Below are positions 1,779-33,049 of a DNA stretch of 33,049 nt, piece by piece. The first letter of the stretch is position 1, and each line of letters starts with the position of its first letter. Source of the DNA: Deltaproteobacteria bacterium. GTDB lineage: Bacteria; Desulfobacterota; Syntrophobacteria; Syntrophobacterales; Syntrophobacteraceae. The DNA lies in NCBI GenBank assembly GCA_012517775.1, contig JAAYUJ010000738.1, positions 1 through 33,049 of the forward strand, read 5' to 3'. Below the pieces are notes generated by a model. The model did no database searches. It had not been told where the DNA came from and saw only the letters and a program-made list of their open reading frames with translations. The position numbers and the translations under genes are program-made.

Positions 1779-3488
1779 TCAACATCGGAGGGACTCTTTG
1801 GTGAGGTTGTACTTTTCCATTTTTCGGTAGAGGGTCACGCGGTTTATCCCCAGCAACCGGGCTGCTTTTGCTTTGTTCCAGGCGGTTTTGTCCAGGGCTT
1901 CAAGAATTGCGTGAGAAACGGCATCCTGTGTCTCATGGGGAGCACGGTGCTCTATTTCTGGAGCATTCATGAAGTCAGGCGGCAGATGATCGAAGGTGAT
2001 GATGTTCTGGCTGCAAAGGACGAAGGCATGCTCCATGGTGTGCTCGAGTTCCCGCACATTGCCGGGCCAGGGATACTTGAGGAAGGCTTTGAATACATCT
2101 GAAGATACCGCCTCAATTGTTTTCTTGAATTTGATGTTGAACCCATTACGAAAGTGATCGATCAGGAGAGGGATGTCCTCGCGCCTGTCCCTTAGAGGTG
2201 GCAACCTGATCTCCACCACCTTCAGCCGGTAGTATAGGTCCTCTCTCAATTCTCCACGGCTGACTTTTTCCAGGAGATTCTTGTTTGTTGCGGCGATCAG
2301 CCGAACATCCACCTTCACTGGAGTAGAGTTTCCGACCCGCTCAAATTGCCTCTCTTCGAGGACGCGCAAAAGCTTGAGTTGTATCATTGGCGAGATGTCA
2401 CCAACCTCATCCAGGAAAATGGTGCCACCATCTGCTCGCTGGAATCGCCCCGCGTTGTCTCTGATGGCCCCTGTGAACGCCCCTTTCACATGGCCGAAAA
2501 GCTCGCTCTCGAGGAGGCTTTCCGGCAAAGACGAGCAGTTTACCTTGACCAGCGGCTTATGGCTCCGTTCTCCGGCAAGATGCAGCGCCTCGGCTACCAG
2601 TTCTTTCCCTGTCCCACTTTCCCCCGTGATGAGAACAGTCGATTGAACGCCGGCCAGAGCTCTTATGAGAGAAAAGACCTTCTGCATCTCCTCGCTTCTG
2701 CCAACGATGCGATGAAACTGCCGATGCGCTTTGAGCTTGCTTTCGAGGTCGGCCACATGCGTATCATCCCTCAACACCATAACGACACCCGAGAGTTTGC
2801 CCTGGAGGCTAGCCAGTGGATAAGTCCTCACGCTGATGACCTTCGTTCCGCGATTGTCAAACAGGCACTCGATACGGTCTAGCTCAACTGGTTTTCCACT
2901 CTTGATCGCTTCCTCCAGAATCTCCACAAGTCTTCCGCTGCACACCCCGGGCAGAGAGCCAAACGGCTTTCCGATGTCATCACGAGAATATCCACACATG
3001 GACATGGCTGCGTCATTAAGCTCGATGACGACTGACTCTTTATCTGTGGTGATGATAGCATCCCTGACGCTTCTGAAGATCGCCTCGATATTGGTGCGGT
3101 ATCTTTCCTTTTCTTCATTTACAGCCTTATATTTCAAGGCCGTGCGGGTGGCATGCAGCAACGCTTCCTGGTTGATGGGCTTGGGGATGTAATCGAAGGC
3201 ACCCAGGCGAATAGACTCAGCAGCAGTCTCGATGCTTGGATTTCCTGTGATCATGATCACAGGACAGCTCAGTCCTCTTCCCCTGATCTCGCGTAAGACA
3301 TCGATACCAGTTCCATCCTCCAGGATGATGTCGGCAAATATCAGGTCAAAGCTCATTTCGTTTATACGAGTCCGGGCTTGGCTGCAGTTTTCAGCAGTCG
3401 CCACGGCATGTCCCTCGGTCTTGAGGAACCTTTCGAAGGTAAACCTGATCGCTTCTTCATCGTCAATGACAAGAATCATGGCATTCAT
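1779..3488 (-). CDS. Sigma-54-dependent response regulator, REC-PAS-AAA+-Fis HTH
   Basis: 569 aa; ILVIDDEEAIRF receiver, central PAS, GESGTGKE Walker A, GAFTGA loop, C-terminal Fis-type HTH (AARLLGINRVTLYRKMEKY). Confidence 0.95.
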   Translation of the reverse strand: MNAMILVIDDEEAIRFTFERFLKTEGHAVATAENCSQARTRINEMSFDLIFADIILEDGTGIDVLREIRGRGLSCPVIMITGNPSIETAAESIRLGAFDYIPKPINQEALLHATRTALKYKAVNEEKERYRTNIEAIFRSVRDAIITTDKESVVIELNDAAMSMCGYSRDDIGKPFGSLPGVCSGRLVEILEEAIKSGKPVELDRIECLFDNRGTKVISVRTYPLASLQGKLSGVVMVLRDDTHVADLESKLKAHRQFHRIVGRSEEMQKVFSLIRALAGVQSTVLITGESGTGKELVAEALHLAGERSHKPLVKVNCSSLPESLLESELFGHVKGAFTGAIRDNAGRFQRADGGTIFLDEVGDISPMIQLKLLRVLEERQFERVGNSTPVKVDVRLIAATNKNLLEKVSRGELREDLYYRLKVVEIRLPPLRDRREDIPLLIDHFRNGFNIKFKKTIEAVSSDVFKAFLKYPWPGNVRELEHTMEHAFVLCSQNIITFDHLPPDFMNAPEIEHRAPHETQDAVSHAILEALDKTAWNKAKAARLLGINRVTLYRKMEKYNLTKESLRC

Positions 3489-5334
3489 TGTTCACCTTGG
3501 CAGGCAGGTCGATGATCACTTTGGTGAATTCCCCTTTGCGACTCTCAAAACTGAGGAACCCCCCATGATCTGTGATGATCCTTTCAGTGATGTTCAACCC
3601 AAGGCCGGTTCCTTTCCCAAAAGGCTTTGTGGAAAAGAATGCCTTTGTCAGCATGGGCAGTTCATGGGCTGAAACTCCCACTCCCTGATCATGAAACACG
3701 ATTCGCACATAAGGGCGAGCGCTGATGATCACTTTCTCGCCGGTGATTTCGAGGAGCTTGTTCTCATGCCTTCCCGGATACTTCTCGTTCAATGCATAGC
3801 GCGCGTTGCTGATAATATTTACAAAACCCTGCTGGATCTGCTGAAAGTTGACATCCACTTCAGGAAGATCGTCTGAAAGATCTATCTCCAGATCAATGCC
3901 CTCCTTTCGTATTTGAGCCTGGGTGAGAATGATTGACTCTTCAAGTATTAGAGGAATGGAGGTCACTTTCCTGCTCTCTCGCTCATCATTCCGTGCGTAG
4001 GAGAGCAGGGTCCTGACTGTGCGTCCGATACGCTCCCCTTCCTTCACGATTCTCTTGCCGATGTCATGTTCCATGCTCTCGGCGCTGCAATCGTTTATCA
4101 GTATCTGACCATAGTTGATGACACCCGTGACGGGATTGTTGATCTCATGAGCGATCCCGGCGACCAGTTCCCCCAGGGATGCCAAATGACATGCCTGCAT
4201 GGCTTCCGCCTGCAGTGCCATCTTTGCGGTTATGTCACTGGCCAGCAGGAGTACGCGGCTGACCCTGCCACCCTCTGTGATTGGAAAGGCCCTCAAGTCC
4301 AGTACGGCGCCATTGTGGGTCAACACCGAACCTTCCCTCTCGCCGGTATCAAAGCATCTCACTACCGGGGAGTCCTCGGACGGAGCAGACAGAACATGCA
4401 CCAATTCGCGACAGTATTGCCCTGCCTCCCCGGATACCGCCCCACTCAATTGTTGAACATTCCCACAATTTGTCCAGGATATTTCCATGTCGGAAGAGAA
4501 TAGGACCAGAGTGTCGCTGATAGCATTCAGAAGAGTATTGAATTCCTGTGTGAGGTTTTTGAAGTTATCACGTTCCGTCTGCAGAGCAGTTTGAATCTGC
4601 TGTCGCTCCAGAATTTCTTCACTCATCCGCGCATTTGCTCGCAACAGTTCGGCGGTTCGTTCCCTGACGCGATGCTCCAATTCAGCATTGACCCTGTGAA
4701 GCTCTTCCGTGCGCTCATGGACCAACCGCTCCAGCTCCGTCCGATGTTTTCCAAGCTCAGCCTCAATCAGCTTTCGTTCAGTCAAGTCGGTCACTACGGC
4801 GCAAGCTCCCTGGAAATCCCCCATGAGCAAAGGAGATATGGAAAAATGCGTCGAAAGCAGGCTTCCCCCCATGGCTCGAAGCGTTATTTCTCCCTTGGCG
4901 CCGCCGGTGAAGCCCGCATGGAGCAGTTTTTCAAAGGCGCCCAACTCTCCCGGTCTCAAGTAATTGAAAAGGGAAGATCCAGTAAGGTCCCGTGCTGTTG
5001 TCTTGAGCATCTCGGCGAACCGGACGTTGCAGTAGGCAATCATTCCGCTCGCAGAGATCGCGAGGGCGCCTTCGCTTATGGCTTCAATGAGTATACGGTA
5101 GCTGTAATCGGCTCCTTTGAGGGTATAAACCTGTTCGCTTGGATGGTAGACGACAACGGCATCCACCTCGCCCTGGCGAATGGCATCAATGACCGCCTCC
5201 GATTCTTCGAGCCGCTCCCGCAGTTCCTCAATCTCTTTGATCAAAAGCTCTTCCTTGGGCACCTGGTCCGTTGCCATGGAAGAACCTCCGCTCGCTGGGC
5301 CATTTTTTACGTTGTCATTGGGATTGTGTCCCAT
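3463..5334 (-). CDS. PAS-domain sensor histidine kinase
   Basis: 623 aa; PAS domains, coiled coil, H-box LASLGELVAGIAHEINNPVTGVINY, ATPase N/G boxes (NIISNARYALNE, GKGTGLGLNI). Overlaps the response-regulator start. Confidence 0.94.
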   Translation of the reverse strand: MGHNPNDNVKNGPASGGSSMATDQVPKEELLIKEIEELRERLEESEAVIDAIRQGEVDAVVVYHPSEQVYTLKGADYSYRILIEAISEGALAISASGMIAYCNVRFAEMLKTTARDLTGSSLFNYLRPGELGAFEKLLHAGFTGGAKGEITLRAMGGSLLSTHFSISPLLMGDFQGACAVVTDLTERKLIEAELGKHRTELERLVHERTEELHRVNAELEHRVRERTAELLRANARMSEEILERQQIQTALQTERDNFKNLTQEFNTLLNAISDTLVLFSSDMEISWTNCGNVQQLSGAVSGEAGQYCRELVHVLSAPSEDSPVVRCFDTGEREGSVLTHNGAVLDLRAFPITEGGRVSRVLLLASDITAKMALQAEAMQACHLASLGELVAGIAHEINNPVTGVINYGQILINDCSAESMEHDIGKRIVKEGERIGRTVRTLLSYARNDERESRKVTSIPLILEESIILTQAQIRKEGIDLEIDLSDDLPEVDVNFQQIQQGFVNIISNARYALNEKYPGRHENKLLEITGEKVIISARPYVRIVFHDQGVGVSAHELPMLTKAFFSTKPFGKGTGLGLNITERIITDHGGFLSFESRKGEFTKVIIDLPAKVNNECHDSCH

Positions 5335-5352: not shown

Positions 5353-5649
5353 TTACGTTTTAGGACGAGGCAGCAAATGCAGCCCGATGAGCACTCGCTC
5401 GGTGTCGGAAAGGTCCCCTATGATCTTCCTGAGCGGTGGAGGAAGCTTTCTCACCAGGGTTGGAAGGGCGACAATCTGATCCTCCCTGGCAAGTTTCGGG
5501 TGCTCGAGAAGGTCAATGACTTCTATCTCGTACCTTCCCTTGAGCTGTTCCTCGCAGATCGCCTTCAGATTGGCAAAGGCTGCAATAGCCTTGGCGGTCT
5601 GCCCGGCCACATAGAGTCTCAGTATGAAATAATCACCCGGGTCACACAC
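5353..5649 (-). CDS. kaiB: KaiB-like protein
   Basis: 98 aa thioredoxin-like Kai[76 protein letters not shown]. Confidence 0.93.
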
Positions 5650-5661
5650 TGGAGTGTTCTC

Positions 5662-6135
5662 CTATAGCTTTGGTGTCGGAGGGGCTGCTTCGTCCGCCTT
5701 ACGGAGCCGGGCAATTTCCATGCGCTTTCTGGCAAGAACATCTTCGCGGGATTGCGCCTGTGAAATGGCTCTCTTGCGGAATGTGTCAACGATTTTGAGA
5801 CACCGAGTTCGAAGAATTAGTGAAGCTTGCCTCGCTCGTATTGTTGTTTGAGCGGGGCGGGTTGATCCAGACGGCCTTGGGCAATGGGGCAAGTGTCGGG
5901 GGCCCATTGACAAAGCGTGTCGGATTGGCTCGATAAGCCTGGCGCAGGATCCTGCGCCGCGCACAAGGAATTCCATGGCAAAAAGGGTCTTCCCCGAACC
6001 GGCAGAGCCGCAAACGAGGATCGGCCTTCCCTGTGGAAGCCCGCCGTTTGTGATATCGTCAAAGCCCAGTATGCCTGTAGGGGACTTGGAAAGCTGATTG
6101 GAAGCGCCGTGTTTGCTCTCTTCCGTGTCGTTCAT
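5662..6135 (-). pseudogene. kaiC: KaiC-like ATPase, internal part replaced by an IS-derived segment
   Basis: N-terminus SPTGILGFDDITNGGLPQGRPILVCGSAGSGKTLFAMEFLVRGA is KaiC-like with Walker A. It is followed by a 187-bp block identical in kind to 32754-32940, then a KaiC-type coiled-coil tail (ISQAQSREDVLARKRMEIARLRKADEA). Confidence 0.85.
5776..5962 (-). mobile_element. Solo remnant of IS3-type element (transposase C-terminus and element end)
   Basis: Near-identical by eye (a few mismatches) to 32754-32940, which encodes the transposase C-terminus (...WINPPRSNNNTSEASFTNSSNSVSQNR). Confidence 0.85.
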
Positions 6136-6551: not shown

Positions 6552-6731
6552 CTATTGTTTGAAGACCTTCTTGATTTCGCCAACCTTTTTCCGCGCCGCG
6601 CCTTTCAACTGATCGTCCTTTCCCTCTTCTTCGAGATCGCGGTTGCCTGTAAGCTTTCCGAGACCTTCTTTGACCTTTCCTTTGATCGTGTCTTTCTCAC
6701 CTTTAATTCTATCTTTTGTGCTCGGCTTCAT
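6552..6731 (-). CDS. CsbD family stress-response protein
   Basis: 59 aa, too short for the ORF track: MKPSTKDRIKGEKDTIKGKVKEGLGKLTGNRDLEEEGKDDQLKGAARKKVGEIKKVFKQ*, a CsbD-type KGK(V/I)KE..GKLTG pattern. Confidence 0.88.
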   Translation of the reverse strand: MKPSTKDRIKGEKDTIKGKVKEGLGKLTGNRDLEEEGKDDQLKGAARKKVGEIKKVFKQ

Positions 6732-6939: not shown

Positions 6940-7332
6940 CTAATCAGAGTAGCCGCTTCCCACGATCAGGCCGCTCTTCGTTCTCTTGGCATAGGTGTGC
7001 TTCATCTTGCCCTGCCATTCATAGTCAACCCAAGTGCCTGCTGGAGTCGCTTTTACGACGGCATTGTAGACAACTGCCGCTTTCTCTTTTAAGCTCTGCC
7101 CCTCCAATGATGGGTGAACCAACAGGCTTCCATTTTCCTGCATGATGAATACGTAGTAGGGTTCTCTCTTGGCCGCATCCTTGAAGTCGGCGGCTGTCTT
7201 ACCACCATCAATGGCCGCCACAATCTCATCCACTTGCTTTTGTATGGCAGCTTTATCCGCCGCCGACAAAGCACTGGTTGTCAGAAGGATACCCATGAGG
7301 AACACAAGGCATGTAAGCGCAACTTTTTTCAT
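6940..7332 (-). CDS. Secreted single cache-like sensor domain protein
   Basis: 130 aa from MKKVALTCLVFLMGILLTTSALSA (signal peptide); ...YYVFIMQENGSLLVHPSLEGQSLKEKAAVVYNAVVKATPAGTWVDYEWQGKMKHTYAKRTKSGLIVGSGYSD. Confidence 0.8.
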   Translation of the reverse strand: MKKVALTCLVFLMGILLTTSALSAADKAAIQKQVDEIVAAIDGGKTAADFKDAAKREPYYVFIMQENGSLLVHPSLEGQSLKEKAAVVYNAVVKATPAGTWVDYEWQGKMKHTYAKRTKSGLIVGSGYSD

Positions 7333-7490
7333 ACTGATCCCCTTTCTGCTGATTGTTGATGAGTGTGAAATGACAGAATTCCCGTGCCTGGGCAATCCGA
7401 CTTCTATCCACCTCCCTCCTGGTATCCCGCTCCTATTATTTGGAAGACGAAGACGACAGATCGATCCTCGGGCACATGATCACCTCTTAG

Positions 7491-7506
7491 GCAAGCTTTG
7501 TGCCTA
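7491..7506 (-). promoter_or_regulatory. Sigma-54 promoter for the cache-like gene
   Basis: Minus strand TAGGCACAAAGCTTGC; GG 7504-7503, N10, GC 7492-7491. Confidence 0.75.
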
Positions 7507-7603
7507 GCACGCGGAAAGTTGCTGCATTTCAATGTTTGGTAATATCCGCATACAGTTACGACGCGTCATGAGTAGCATTGAAGCTTATCTTTGAACTGAA
7601 AAA

Positions 7604-7636
7604 GCGTTGCATGCAACAGAAGTGTTGCATACAACA
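7604..7636. promoter_or_regulatory. Palindromic enhancer-like site (site B), shared by divergent promoters
   Basis: GTTGCATGCAAC (7606-7617) - agaag - TGTTGCATACAACA (7623-7636). 102 bp to the left GG (7504) and 100 bp to the right GG (7736). Confidence 0.78.
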
Positions 7637-7734
7637 GTTCCCAGACTCAAATCCAGAAGCTTCGACGAGACATGTCCTGCTCCAAGCTCCACATATATTT
7701 ATAAAAATGAAGCAGCGACGCTTCTTAAACTGCT

Positions 7735-7750
7735 TGGCATAGAACTTGCC
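7735..7750 (+). promoter_or_regulatory. Sigma-54 promoter for the small membrane/EF-hand unit
   Basis: TGGCATAGAACTTGCC; GG 7736-7737, N10, GC 7748-7749. Confidence 0.78.
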
Positions 7751-7956
7751 CAAATATGAAGTCAATTACGCCATTGCGAATGGAATATGGCCTCGCCTGT
7801 TATCTCTCTCAACGGTGACAAGAGGCCTTCCCGCGAGGCCAGGGATGCTTGCCGGACATGCTCAGTGCGGGCATCAGTGGCGAGTTTTCAAATAATCGCA
7901 TGGCATGGTCAGGGGAGAATCTACTTTCGAGTCCAACCCAGAGAGGAGGTGATGAG

Positions 7957-8040
7957 ATGGAAACCATCCTCATAATAGTCGTACTGCTTTTGCTCTTCGG
8001 CGGTGGCGGAGGATACTGGTGGTCGAGGCGGGGCCGTTAG
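7957..8040 (+). CDS. 27-aa glycine-rich single-TM membrane peptide
   Basis: METILIIVVLLLLFGGGGGYWWSRRGR* with strong upstream Shine-Dalgarno GAGAGGAGGTGATGAG. Confidence 0.7.
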   Translation: METILIIVVLLLLFGGGGGYWWSRRGR

Positions 8041-8310: not shown

Positions 8311-8667
8311 ATGAAGCATTTCAAGCTGGTTGTGCTGGTTGGATTGGTGACTGTGTTTTTCATGGCAGGTACTGCATTTGCACAGGGTGGCGGTCAGGGA
8401 AAGGGCGGTCAAGGTGCTGCCCCAATGATGGGATGCCAGCAACGATTTGATGCCATGGATACCAACAAAGACGGGCAGGTCAGCAAAGATGAATTCCTGG
8501 CGGCTCCACATCAAAGGGATAATCCCGAACAGATGTTCACGGCAATGGATGTCCACAAACGTGGTTACCTGACAAAAGATGAATTCTGCTCAGACAAGGG
8601 GATGGGGATGCATAAAGGCATGGGCAGAGGCATGGGTCAAGGTCAGGGCACAGGAAGAAATCAGTAG
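8311..8667 (+). CDS. Secreted EF-hand protein
   Basis: Signal peptide (MKHFKLVVLVGLVTVFFMAGTAFA), EF-hand loop DTNKDGQVSKDEF, second degenerate loop DVHKRGYLTKDEF, M/G-rich tail. Confidence 0.85.
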   Translation: MKHFKLVVLVGLVTVFFMAGTAFAQGGGQGKGGQGAAPMMGCQQRFDAMDTNKDGQVSKDEFLAAPHQRDNPEQMFTAMDVHKRGYLTKDEFCSDKGMGMHKGMGRGMGQGQGTGRNQ

Positions 8668-8901: not shown

Positions 8902-10377
8902 ATGTCAACTCTACGGAATGATATGGGAAAAGGTATCCTAGAGCGCATCGCGCGCCGGGCGATGACGGAACGCGGTTTCCTGGTCGATTTCTCCGAGGCC
9001 GCCTTGAACGAGGTGGAAAAGATTGCGCAGGTCGATTCGGGGGCAAAATCTCCCGGGAAGGACCTGCGTCACCTGCTCTGGACGTCGATTGACAACGATG
9101 ATTCGTTAGACCTGGACCAGCTGACGGTGGCAGAGACCCTGCCGGATAAGACCGTAAAGATTTTTGTGGCTGTCGCCGACGTGGACGCCCTCGTTAAGAA
9201 GGGGTCGGCTATTGATGAGCACGCCCGGCAGAACACGACTTCGGTATACACGGCCGGCAAGATCTTTCCCATGCTCCCGGAGAAGCTCTCCACGGATCTC
9301 ACCTCGCTCAATTATCATGAAGACCGTTTGGTCATTGTCATCGAGGCGGTGATCAGCGATGTGGGGGAGATGCAAAGCTCGGATATCTATCCTGCCTTAG
9401 TCCGTAACCACGCCAAGCTCGCCTACGACAGTGTCGCGGCCTGGCTGGAAGGGAAGGAGCCCATGCCGGACGCCGTTGCGGCTGTCCCGGGGCTTGCGGA
9501 GAATCTTCGTATCCAGGACCGGGTGGCGCAGCAGATGAAAGGCCTGCGGCATGAGCATGGCGCCTTGGATCTGCAGACGCTGGAATCTCGGCCGGTCTTT
9601 GTCGGGGACAAGATCCAGGATCTGCGTATGGATGAAAGGAACCGGGCCAAAGAGGTTATCGAGGACTTCATGATTGCGGCCAACGGCGCGACCGCGCGTT
9701 TTCTCCACGGGAAAAAAGTCCCCTCCCTGAGGCGCATGGTTCGTTCACCCAAGCGGTGGGAAAGGATCGTAGAGATCGCGGCCCAGTACAATTCGCAGCT
9801 TCCACCGCAGCCGGATTCGAGCGCGCTCGCGAGTTTCCTGACTAAACAGAAAGCAGCCGACCCACTCCGTTTTCCCGATCTCTCGCTCTCCGTCATCAAA
9901 CTGCTCGGCCCGGGTGAATATGTCGTCGAATTCCCGGAAGAGACGGCGCCCGGCCACTTCGGCCTCGCCGTCAAGGATTATACCCACTCAACGGCTCCCA
10001 ACCGCCGGTTTCCGGATCTCACCACCCAGCGCATCCTGAAGGCAGCCCTGGACGGCTCGCCCATGCCCCACAGCCGGGACGAACTCGTGGAACTTGCCCG
10101 GCACTGCACGGAGCAGGAAAATGATGCCAACAAGGTGGAGCGGCTCGTCGCCAAGTCGGCCGCGGCCATGCTGCTTTCGTCGAGGATCGGAGATCGGTTT
10201 GACGCCATGTGCACTGGTGCTGCCGACAAAGGGACATGGGTGCGCATCTTACATCCACCCATCGAAGGTCGATTAGTTGCCGGGTATGAAGGCGTCGATG
10301 TGGGAAGCCGGCTCAGGGTGCAGCTCATCCACACAGATGTGGAGAAGGGGTATATCGATTTCAAGAAGACCCAGTAG
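8902..10377 (+). CDS. RNB-domain exoribonuclease (RNase II/R family)
   Basis: 491 aa; SIDNDDSLDLDQL...VKIFVAVADVDALVKKGSAIDEHARQNTTSVYTAGKIFPMLPEKLSTDLTSLN is the RNB active-site region; APNRRFPDLTTQR motif. Confidence 0.9.
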   Translation: MSTLRNDMGKGILERIARRAMTERGFLVDFSEAALNEVEKIAQVDSGAKSPGKDLRHLLWTSIDNDDSLDLDQLTVAETLPDKTVKIFVAVADVDALVKKGSAIDEHARQNTTSVYTAGKIFPMLPEKLSTDLTSLNYHEDRLVIVIEAVISDVGEMQSSDIYPALVRNHAKLAYDSVAAWLEGKEPMPDAVAAVPGLAENLRIQDRVAQQMKGLRHEHGALDLQTLESRPVFVGDKIQDLRMDERNRAKEVIEDFMIAANGATARFLHGKKVPSLRRMVRSPKRWERIVEIAAQYNSQLPPQPDSSALASFLTKQKAADPLRFPDLSLSVIKLLGPGEYVVEFPEETAPGHFGLAVKDYTHSTAPNRRFPDLTTQRILKAALDGSPMPHSRDELVELARHCTEQENDANKVERLVAKSAAAMLLSSRIGDRFDAMCTGAADKGTWVRILHPPIEGRLVAGYEGVDVGSRLRVQLIHTDVEKGYIDFKKTQ

Positions 10378-12880: not shown

Positions 12881-12944
12881 TGACATCACGCGAGTGGATG
12901 TTGACCTGAATGAGGAGAACAGCCACAAGGGCAGCCGGAATGAA

Positions 12945-13262
12945 AAGCGGTGGGACAGGATCGTGGAGATGGCGGCCCAGCAAAATTCGCAGTTTCCAAC
13001 GGAGCAGGATTCGAAGGCTCGCGCGGGTTTCCTGGCTGTGCAGAAAGCAGGTGACCTACTCCGTTTTCCCGACCTCTCCCTATCCGTCATGAAACTGCCC
13101 GGCCCGTGTGAATATGTCGTCGAATTCCAGGAAGAGACAGCGCTCGGCCACCTCGGTCTTGCCGTCAAAAATTACACTCACTCAGCGGGTCCCAATCGGC
13201 CGTTTCCGGATCTCACCATTTAGTGCATCCTCAAGGCAGCCCTGGATGGGTCGCCCATAGAA
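12945..13262 (+). pseudogene. RNB exoribonuclease fragment (partial paralogue of 8902-10377)
   Basis: KRWDRIVEMAAQQNSQFPTEQDSKARAGFLAVQKAGDLLRFPDLSLSVMKLPGPCEYVVEFQEETALGHLGLAVKNYTHSAGPNRPFPDLTI* parallels the gene at 9751-10063; stop where the parent reads TTQRILKAALDGSPM. Confidence 0.9.
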
Positions 13263-15656: not shown

Positions 15657-15938
15657 TCAGGAAACCACATGAAAAGGTTCAGGTGGGTTGGTGTCGAAAG
15701 CCTCAGGTCCAAGCCTGTTGTATTGAGAAACGATCCTATAAACAGTTGCTTCAGAAAGACCCGTATGCATGGCGATTTGGGATAAGGGTCTTGGGTGCAC
15801 CATGAAGTTATAGATCACAAGCCATTTTTGCAGCGTTAGAAAGCCTGGCCTCGTTTGCATCTTTGTCCTTATCTCGTCCAATGACAGGTGATCTTCCAGA
15901 GCATCTGTTTGGAATTCTTCCCTCCCTCGATTCCCCAT
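15657..15938 (-). CDS. Small HTH protein (IS630 N-terminus/winged-helix-like)
   Basis: 93 aa; LSLDEIRTKMQTRPGFLTLQKWLVIYNFMVHPRPLSQIAMHTGLSEATVYRIVSQYNRLGPEAF. Confidence 0.7.
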   Translation of the reverse strand: MGNRGREEFQTDALEDHLSLDEIRTKMQTRPGFLTLQKWLVIYNFMVHPRPLSQIAMHTGLSEATVYRIVSQYNRLGPEAFDTNPPEPFHVVS

Positions 15939-16163: not shown

Positions 16164-16179
16164 ATCAAGATCTGTGCCG
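16164..16179 (-). promoter_or_regulatory. Variant sigma-54-like promoter facing the HTH gene
   Basis: Minus strand CGGCACAGATCTTGAT (GG 16178-16177; GA instead of GC at -12), 100 bp from site C. The 20-mer ATGATCAAGATCTGTGCCGA recurs at 32395-32414. Confidence 0.5.
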
Positions 16180-16277: not shown

Positions 16278-16325
16278 TGTTGCATGCAACGGAAGCGTTG
16301 CATGCCTTCTGTGTCACATGCAACA
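16278..16325. promoter_or_regulatory. Palindromic enhancer-like site (site C)
   Basis: TGTTGCATGCAAC-ggaagc-GTTGCATGC followed by TGTCACATGCAACA. Confidence 0.78.
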
Positions 16326-16569: not shown

Positions 16570-17142
16570 ATGAAGAAACGTTTTCTCACCAGCCTTCAAC
16601 TCCTGATTTGTCTCTTGTGCGCTTTACCGTGCAGTGCCGTTTACGGTTCTCAAGACCAGCCGTTTCTTGCAGGCTCACAGCTTCCCCGGTTCACTCTGCC
16701 GGCGCCGGAATCGCAACAAATATTGAGTTACCTTGGCCTGAAAACGACGGCCCCCTTCACCATCTCCCAGATAGGTGCAACACTTGTCTTTATCGAGGTC
16801 CTGAGCGCCCTGTGCCCTGCCTGCCTCGCGAATACGCCTGTAGTCAACAGGCTCTACCAGGTGATCCAGAAAGAGGCTGCTTTGGCGAGGGACGTGAAGA
16901 TCATTGGGATATGCATCGGAGACTCTAAAACGCAAATCGATGCTTTCAAAAAGAGCTTCAGGGTGCCGTTTCCGTTATTTCCCGACGCGAATCTGGCCAT
17001 TGCCAAAGCCTTGGGAGTGATGGAAACGCCAACCATGATCCCGGCAACGCCCAGTGGCAAGATGCTTTGGGGCCACAGCGGGATGATCCGCGATTTCGAC
17101 GGGTTGCTGAAAGTTCTGAGAGACAACCACAAGAAGCGGTAA
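16570..17142 (+). CDS. Secreted thioredoxin-fold protein (TlpA/AhpC-TSA-like)
   Basis: 190 aa; signal peptide, ATLVFIEVLSALCPACLANTPVVNRLYQ with CPAC, ...LFPDANLAIAKALGVMETPTMIPATPSGKMLWGHSGMI. Confidence 0.88.
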   Translation: MKKRFLTSLQLLICLLCALPCSAVYGSQDQPFLAGSQLPRFTLPAPESQQILSYLGLKTTAPFTISQIGATLVFIEVLSALCPACLANTPVVNRLYQVIQKEAALARDVKIIGICIGDSKTQIDAFKKSFRVPFPLFPDANLAIAKALGVMETPTMIPATPSGKMLWGHSGMIRDFDGLLKVLRDNHKKR

Positions 17143-17574
17143 ATGGCGATGACCGAGAACGACAACAAAGTGAACACCCTGATGAGAAGTGCGGTCTTCC
17201 GGGACTTGCCCGGGGAAGCACTGAATGCGATCGCCCGGGCGGTTCACGATCTGGTGGCGCCGCAACATATACTCCTCTGCAGAAAGGGCGATCCTGGAGA
17301 CAGCCTCTACCTCATCAGTTCAGGCAGGGTGAGGATCTTTGGAAGAAATGAAAAAGGAGTGGAGATCGACCTTTCCATCCAGGGGCCAAGCGACACGTTC
17401 GGCGAAATGTCGCTCCTCACGGGCGAATCGATGTATTCCGACGACTCGTGCCCTGCTGGCTCCTCAATCTGGGAGCGTTCATTTTGCCGTGGCTCGAGTT
17501 TGTCTACGGGCTGTTCCTCTCCAGGATTCAAAACCCTGTCTTTCAAAAAAATATCCAATAAATGTTGCATCTGA
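17143..17574 (+). CDS. Cyclic nucleotide-binding (CRP-like sensor) domain protein, C-terminus possibly frameshifted
   Basis: MRSAVFRDLPGEALNAIARAVHDLVAPQHILLCRKGDPGDSLYLISSGRVRIFGRNEKGVEIDLSIQGPSDTFGEMSLLTGE is a cNMP-binding fold; the sequence after LLTGE is atypical. Confidence 0.8.
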   Translation: MAMTENDNKVNTLMRSAVFRDLPGEALNAIARAVHDLVAPQHILLCRKGDPGDSLYLISSGRVRIFGRNEKGVEIDLSIQGPSDTFGEMSLLTGESMYSDDSCPAGSSIWERSFCRGSSLSTGCSSPGFKTLSFKKISNKCCI

Positions 17575-17610
17575 CACGAAAGATATGCAACGCTTCTGTA
17601 GCATGCAACA
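17563..17610. promoter_or_regulatory. Palindromic enhancer-like site (site D)
   Basis: TGTTGCATCTGACA-cgaaagata-TGCAAC-gcttct-GTAGCATGCAACA; same architecture as site C in inverted orientation. Confidence 0.75.
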
Positions 17611-18045: not shown

Positions 18046-18195
18046 ATGCTGTGGACCATAGGTGCGATTCTATTGATTTTGTGGCTGCTGGGACTGGTAA
18101 GTGGCTACACGATGGGCGGAGTCATTCACGCCCTGCTCGTCATCGCCATCATCGTGGTGCTGGTCCGGATTATCCAGGGGCGAAGACCCGTGTAG
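18046..18195 (+). CDS. lmo0937-like small membrane protein
   Basis: 49 aa MLWTIGAILLILWLLGLVSGYTMGGVIHALLVIAIIVVLVRIIQGRRPV with upstream AGAGGGGAGG. Confidence 0.85.
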   Translation: MLWTIGAILLILWLLGLVSGYTMGGVIHALLVIAIIVVLVRIIQGRRPV

Positions 18196-31886: not shown

Positions 31887-32249
31887 TTAGATTTGTAATG
31901 CCTTGTTTACTGAATGAATAAGCCCATCCTGTTTTAGCGGTTTAACGAGGTAATCAACGGCGTGCATGCGAAAACTATCTTGAAGTGTTTCTGCACTGGG
32001 ATATGCCGTCATGATGATCACTCGCGTTTTAAGGTTCCTCCGCATTACCTCCCGTAAGATATCTATCCCCCAGCCATCGCCAAGAAAGATATCTGCAAGT
32101 ATCAGTTCAAATTCTGCTTCATCCATTCTTGTCAAAGCTTCCCGATAATCTTTGGCAGTGAGCACCTTATGCCCTTCAGCTGTAAGGAATTTACTGAAGC
32201 TGAACCTGATGCTCTCTTCATCATCAATCACGAGTAAATTTGCCATCAT
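31887..32249 (-). CDS. Receiver-only response regulator
   Basis: 120 aa: LLVIDDEESIRFSFSKFLTAEGHKVLTAKDYREALTRMDEAEFELILADIFLGDGWGIDILREV...RVIIMTAYPSAET...VDYLVKPL; similar to the REC of the 1779-3488 regulator; no output domain. Confidence 0.9.
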   Translation of the reverse strand: MMANLLVIDDEESIRFSFSKFLTAEGHKVLTAKDYREALTRMDEAEFELILADIFLGDGWGIDILREVMRRNLKTRVIIMTAYPSAETLQDSFRMHAVDYLVKPLKQDGLIHSVNKALQI

Positions 32250-32396: not shown

Positions 32397-32412
32397 ATCA
32401 AGATCTGTGCCG
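32397..32412 (-). promoter_or_regulatory. Variant sigma-54-like promoter for the receiver-only gene
   Basis: Minus strand TCGGCACAGATCTTGAT (GG 32411-32410; GA at -12), 100 bp from the start of site E1. Confidence 0.5.
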
Positions 32413-32510: not shown

Positions 32511-32558
32511 TGTTGCATGCAATGGAAACGTTGCATGTATTCTGTATCACGTGCAACA
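32511..32558. promoter_or_regulatory. Palindromic enhancer-like site (site E1)
   Basis: TGTTGCATGCAATGGAAACGTTGCATGTATTCTGTATCACGTGCAACA aligns base for base with site C. Confidence 0.75.
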
Positions 32559-32645: not shown

Positions 32646-32668
32646 CAACGCTTCTGTTGCATACAACA
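32646..32668. promoter_or_regulatory. Palindromic enhancer-like site (site E2)
   Basis: GCAAC-gcttct-GTTGCATACAACA, same architecture as site D. Confidence 0.7.
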
Positions 32669-32753: not shown

Positions 32754-33049
32754 GCGGAATGTGTCAACGATTTTGAGACACCGAGTTCGAAGAATTAGTG
32801 AAGCTTGCCTCGCTCGTATTGTTGTTTGAGCGGGGCGGGTTGATCCAGACGGCCCTGGGCAATGGGGCAAGTGTCGGGGGCCCATTGACAAAGCGTTCCG
32901 GATTGGCTTGATAAGCCTGGCGCAGGATCCTGCGCCGCGCTTCCAACACCTGGTCTGCCTGGCCATAGTGGAGCATATGCGGGGTGAGCAGACCAATGGC
33001 GCTATGGTGATGCTCCCGGTTGTACCAGGAAAAGAAGGACTGACAAAAC
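32754..33049 (-). mobile_element. IS3-type insertion sequence, end plus transposase (OrfB/integrase) C-terminus, truncated by the window edge
   Basis: Minus-strand frame open from the edge: FCQSFFSWYNREHHHSAIGLLTPHMLHYGQADQVLEARRRILRQAYQANPERFVNGPPTLAPLPRAVWINPPRSNNNTSEASFTNSSNSVSQNR*; typical rve-integrase C-terminus. Confidence 0.88.

Follow-up and report, generated by a model that had tools for sequence, protein, structure and literature searches.

In bacteria, enhancers of sigma-54 promoters serve as the model of action at a distance, and the common view is that they tolerate changes in spacing. NtrC acts from 15 kb (PMC4641369). The closest described systems come from Desulfovibrio vulgaris, in which the divergent sigma-54 operons orp1 and orp2 depend on the activator DVU2106 and IHF (PMC3897727), and the sigma-54 regulome counts among its members divergent T3SS operons for which a DVUA0100 motif was predicted (PMC4641369). 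Site B, in the 33,049-nucleotide window that is the whole stretch of DNA analysed here, resembles the orp locus of this sulfate-reducing relative in having palindromes between two divergent sigma-54 promoters and, as a candidate, one activator; the orp locus also has bending-protein sites between enhancer and promoter (PMC3897727). It differs in that the activator sites of orp are not equidistant (-131 and -88), the spacing there is not fixed, the targets are unrelated, and DVU2106 represses its own sigma-70 promoter (PMC3897727). The regulome is similar in that activators were predicted from motifs beside sigma-54 promoters and divergent operons have a common upstream region, but its distances scatter: the majority are within 100 nt, others exceed 300 bp, and still others are downstream of the promoter (PMC4641369). 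As judged from sequence, the divergent design is already known in kind from orp, and the apparently rigid, invariant spacing described below is the new part; our literature searches, for which subscription journals were mostly out of reach, returned no paper that describes either this motif or this spacing rule.

A sequence-only reading had placed site B (7604-7636) almost exactly midway between two divergent sigma-54 promoters, and both coordinates and symmetry hold: the two promoter GGs have their midpoint at 7620, and site B is centred on 7620.5. The minus promoter, AGGCACAAAGCTTGCC, occupies 7505-7490 of the minus strand (core AGGCACAAAGCTTGC, 7505-7491; GG at 7504-7503; predicted start site near 7479), and the plus promoter, TGGCATAGAACTTGCC, occupies 7735-7750 of the plus strand (core TGGCATAGAACTTGC, 7735-7749; GG at 7736-7737; predicted start site near 7761). 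Each has GG at -24 and GC at -12, 10 bp apart, in a sequence near TGGCACR-N4-TTGCW, and the genome has one sigma-54 gene. Scored with a sigma-54 matrix, the plus promoter outranks every other position on both strands of the window, and the score of the minus promoter is reached by just 3 of 66,066 window positions. A plain consensus scan of the whole window gave 32 hits against 32.4 expected, no enrichment, so significance rests on the positioning of the promoters and not on their count, and we used an analysis of fixed distances in place of a consensus-only scan. Both promoters are kept in relative G009, the minus promoter as AGGCATAAAGCTTGCT and the plus promoter as an identical 16-mer.

The predicted targets of the minus promoter are a secreted sCache_2 protein (6940-7332, minus strand), the first gene of the transcript, and a CsbD-like stress protein (6552-6731, minus strand) which is the direct target in G009, where the sCache_2 gene is absent from between promoter and CsbD. 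On the plus strand, the predicted target is a 27-residue DUF3309 membrane microprotein (7957-8040), probably followed in the same operon by a secreted EF-hand protein (8311-8667) downstream on the same strand. The microprotein, about half the length of the Pfam model, keeps the same length in G009 (L113:4032-4115).

Where the sequence-only reading saw one palindrome, site B (CGTTGCATGCAACAGAAGTGTTGCATACAACAG) holds two near-identical ones with centres 18 bp apart, GTTGCATGCAAC on the left (7606-7617) and GTTGCATACAAC on the right (7624-7635). The left palindrome would be the proximal site (P1) for the minus promoter and the distal site (P2) for the plus promoter, and the right palindrome the reverse. 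Measured from its own proximal palindrome, each promoter lies at the distance of about 100 bp that had been claimed: 100 bp for the minus promoter (spacer 7506-7605, 79% identical to its G009 ortholog) and 99 bp for the plus promoter (spacer 7636-7734, 71% identical). This position fits the upstream-enhancer range of about 80-200 bp.

The motif is far from random in the window: TGTTGCATRCAACA with at most 2 mismatches has 16 strand-hits where 0.32 would be expected, and tandem palindromes of the site B kind occur twice in the window but not once in 40 dinucleotide shuffles. We reject as scarcely credible the explanation that these inverted repeats form a bidirectional transcription terminator; on the minus strand a scan does find a stem of 14 pairs and a T tail (7636-7605), among terminator-like sites no more frequent than chance (2 against 1.5 expected), but most sister arrays consist of one full palindrome with half-sites and have no such stem, and the arrays stand at a fixed distance upstream of promoters, away from gene ends.

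The other motif copies in the window (1730, 16279, 17598, and 32512) are each accompanied, at about 100 bp, by a sigma-54-like promoter. Specifically, i) array 1730-1759 lies 100 bp from a minus promoter facing the Band_7/SPFH gene 408-1430; ii) array 16279-16324 is divergent, with a minus promoter at 99 bp facing the HTH gene 15657-15938 and a plus promoter at 103 bp facing the thioredoxin-like gene 16570-17142, and is divergent in G009 too (L112:3185-3230); iii) array 17564-17609 lies 100 bp from a plus promoter facing the lmo0937-family (DUF5670) gene 18046-18195; and iv) array 32512-32541 lies 99 bp from a minus promoter facing the receiver-only response regulator 31887-32249. A further array at 32656-32667 has no promoter at 100 bp on either side, and its plus-side spacer enters a probable transposase remnant. 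All copies of the 14-mer with at most 1 mismatch in the 4.14-Mb genome, a fragmented assembly of 740 contigs, sit on this one contig.

The same distance recurs across relatives. In 82 arrays (164 sides) from about 14 genomes, with distance counted from the array edge or promoter-proximal palindrome, 74 sigma-54 matrix matches scoring at least 9 fall within 97-103 bp and 36 in the other 373 distances, a roughly hundredfold enrichment per position for arrays that were themselves found by the same motif. Across 71 units the distance averages 100.0 bp (s.d. 1.3); a counter-example is relative G010, at 107 bp. A typical one-way array has a full palindrome beside the spacer and half-sites 18 bp and 34 bp farther out. 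Two promoter classes keep this spacing: class A, which includes both site B promoters, ends in TTGC, and class B is CGGCACAGATCTTGAT, with GA replacing GC at -12. Class B, represented in the window by the minus-strand promoters at 16165-16179 and 32398-32412 and found in many relatives, mostly precedes a receiver-only response regulator or a small HTH gene. At L018, L020, and L021, class B promoters are accompanied by 5′ pieces of the response-regulator gene, a pattern that looks like promoter spread through partial duplication of that gene. A conserved small RNA 3′ of class B promoters was considered and dropped, the conservation being mostly that of the response-regulator leader copied along with the promoter.

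Is site B, then, one indivisible enhancer used equally by both promoters, with the symmetry itself under selection? The geometry is indeed symmetric, and the second divergent array (16279-16324) has stayed divergent in G009, but we consider this explanation distinctly unlikely: almost every array serves one promoter only, at the usual distance, the site B promoters each lie 99-100 bp from their own palindrome, and in G009 each of these two promoters has a separate array. Divergent sharing of an array is uncommon, with 4 clear cases among the 82; L117:1134, a further candidate, has a poor minus promoter (CTGTCGAA) and was left out of the count. Nor is a single palindrome likely to serve both sides, because the other promoter would then be 117-118 bp away, beyond the 96-105 bp of the 71 units, and because of the separate arrays in G009. 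The sequence-only reading therefore stands in part: a compact module with its enhancer midway between divergent sigma-54 promoters agrees with the sequence, the comparison across the regulon, and the location of the regulator, whereas the idea of a single enhancer serving both promoters gives way to one palindrome for each. Since each palindrome is proximal to one promoter at the fixed distance of the regulon, the symmetry follows from the spacing rule and would be a consequence of fixed enhancer-promoter spacing, with no special dual-promoter design.

The arrangement in G009 suggests how the shared array arose. There the two promoters diverge in the same order, but each has an array to itself: array 3626-3655 lies 101 bp from the CsbD promoter and array 3864-3875 lies 100 bp from the DUF3309 promoter, with 208 bp between the arrays. 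The window matches the first half of the G009 locus through 7636 and the second half from 7623, and the overlap is exactly the 14-bp right palindrome TGTTGCATACAACA (7623-7636); because the two homologies overlap on a palindrome, the shared enhancer is probably a fusion. We conclude that the shared array was most likely formed by recombination at this palindrome, the presumed fusion point, merging two arrays and keeping both 100-bp spacings; the direction is our reading of the comparison, and the reverse route, a split of one array into two, may have been taken instead. In G042, the CsbD and DUF3309 genes form one operon behind one array.

Alternatively, the fixed 100 bp could reflect recent copying of a repeat-like module whose length is under no constraint. 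The modules are homologous, and class B promoters carry the leader and sometimes gene fragments with them, but spacers have diverged (median identity 40%, against 26% for shuffled sequences, with many pairs near random) and still differ in length by only about 1 bp, whereas promoter-to-gene distances vary widely, and columns near +47 to +51 (TAAGT near +47) and an A-rich patch near +68 to +70 are conserved in spacers of both promoter classes. Since spacer identity is so low, recent copying explains the constant length poorly, and we think it unlikely as the whole account, although common descent of the modules does contribute partly to the fixed spacing. The conserved spacer columns suggest a further contact or bend. 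A reverse-orientation IHF-like match at +47 in class B is borderline (6.3 of 9; p = 0.005 among four tests), and the same match reached no significance in class A, to which both site B promoters belong. At >70% identity, insertions and deletions appear to compensate one another, with a net change of 0.66 where 2.1 would be expected; this agrees with a constraint on length but counts for little, since the units were pre-selected by spacing and gap placement in them is unreliable. A rigid assembly of about 100 bp, in which an activator on the palindrome, a conserved spacer perhaps holding a bending protein, and sigma-54 polymerase fit together, so that these enhancers would work solely at a fixed distance and dual control would arise readily when units fuse at a palindrome, is a tentative reading which we take seriously but would not yet favor.

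The palindromes have a candidate reader. The gene at 1779-3488 (minus strand) encodes an NtrC-family response regulator with a receiver, a PAS domain, a sigma-54 AAA+ domain containing GAFTGA, and a Fis-type HTH, and was placed among bacterial enhancer-binding proteins of the NtrC family by PF00158 (E = 3.6e-69), PF02954 (E = 1.8e-14), and the GAFTGA in its translation. It has the receiver, AAA+ domain, and HTH of NtrC-, AtoC-, and ZraR-type regulators, but differs in its internal PAS domain after the receiver, in its putative recognition motif, and in scoring below every NCBIfam equivalog cut-off tried (402 against 714 for AtoC, 396 against 559 for NtrC, 392 against 760 for ZraR, and 347 against 503 for the PEP-CTERM regulator PrsR). 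A PAS histidine kinase gene (3463-5334, minus strand) overlaps the activator gene and probably encodes its partner. Directly upstream of both lies kaiB (5353-5649, minus strand), a possible link between Kai-type and sigma-54 control; the kaiC-like gene upstream of kaiB (5662-6135, minus strand) breaks off after about 62 residues, and the sequence past the break, which resembles the contig-end stretch 32799-33049, is probably a transposase remnant.

Several observations connect activator and motif: i) among 41 genomes, the tandem motif (at most 2 mismatches) is found in 11 of 13 with an ortholog of the activator and in 0 of 28 without one (Fisher p = 2.5e-8, a value that overstates independence among related genomes); ii) most orthologs have an array directly 3′ of their gene; and iii) in G010, where the activator is 65% identical, the sites read GTCGCGCGCGAC while the array step is still 34 bp and the spacer is 107 bp, a joint change of motif and activator which supports recognition by the activator 1779-3488. 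In G014 the site changes to GTTGCGCCGCAAC. On the opposing side, the nearest relative, G001, has neither regulator nor motif. G009 had looked like an exception, a genome with the motif and without the activator, until contig C397 turned out to have the start of an 89%-identical activator at its edge. The palindrome might instead be bound by the HTH protein 15657-15938 or by another activator, in a genome that has dozens of these with sigma-54 domains; given the co-occurrence, the array beside the activator gene, and the shift of the motif as the activator diverges, we consider another regulator very unlikely. The motif GTTGCATGCAAC is most likely read by the response regulator 1779-3488, to judge from these comparisons.

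Taken as a whole, site B is probably a divergent sigma-54 module of a local stress-type regulon, with two palindromes in one array, spacers of about 100 bp, and the activator 1779-3488. The PAS histidine kinase would switch on the activator, which would bind the palindromes and drive sigma-54 RNA polymerase across the nearly invariant spacer, perhaps aided by a bending protein within it; the left palindrome would act on the minus promoter (sCache_2 protein and CsbD), the right on the plus promoter (DUF3309 microprotein and, probably, the EF-hand protein after it), and each may assist the opposite promoter from its distal position. Arrays in relatives adjoin genes of the stress type (CsbD, Band_7/SPFH, DUF3309, DUF5670/lmo0937-family, thioredoxin-like, and response-regulator genes), and the motif appears to define a local sigma-54 regulon, of putative stress function, in a desulfobacterial (Syntrophobacteraceae-type) lineage.

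A ready-made test of rigid assembly against looping is available in the dozens of natural enhancer-promoter pairs that keep to about 100 bp while their sequences have diverged. The locus also provides a candidate regulator, a motif, and a target list (CsbD, DUF3309, lmo0937-family, SPFH, thioredoxin-like) for a putative stress regulon in desulfobacteria from peat and sediment, and it illustrates, at the level of sequence, a possible origin of a shared divergent enhancer.

Elsewhere in the window, a short RNase R/II-like gene (8902-10377) is accompanied by a nearby degenerate second copy of its C-terminal part (12894-13223).
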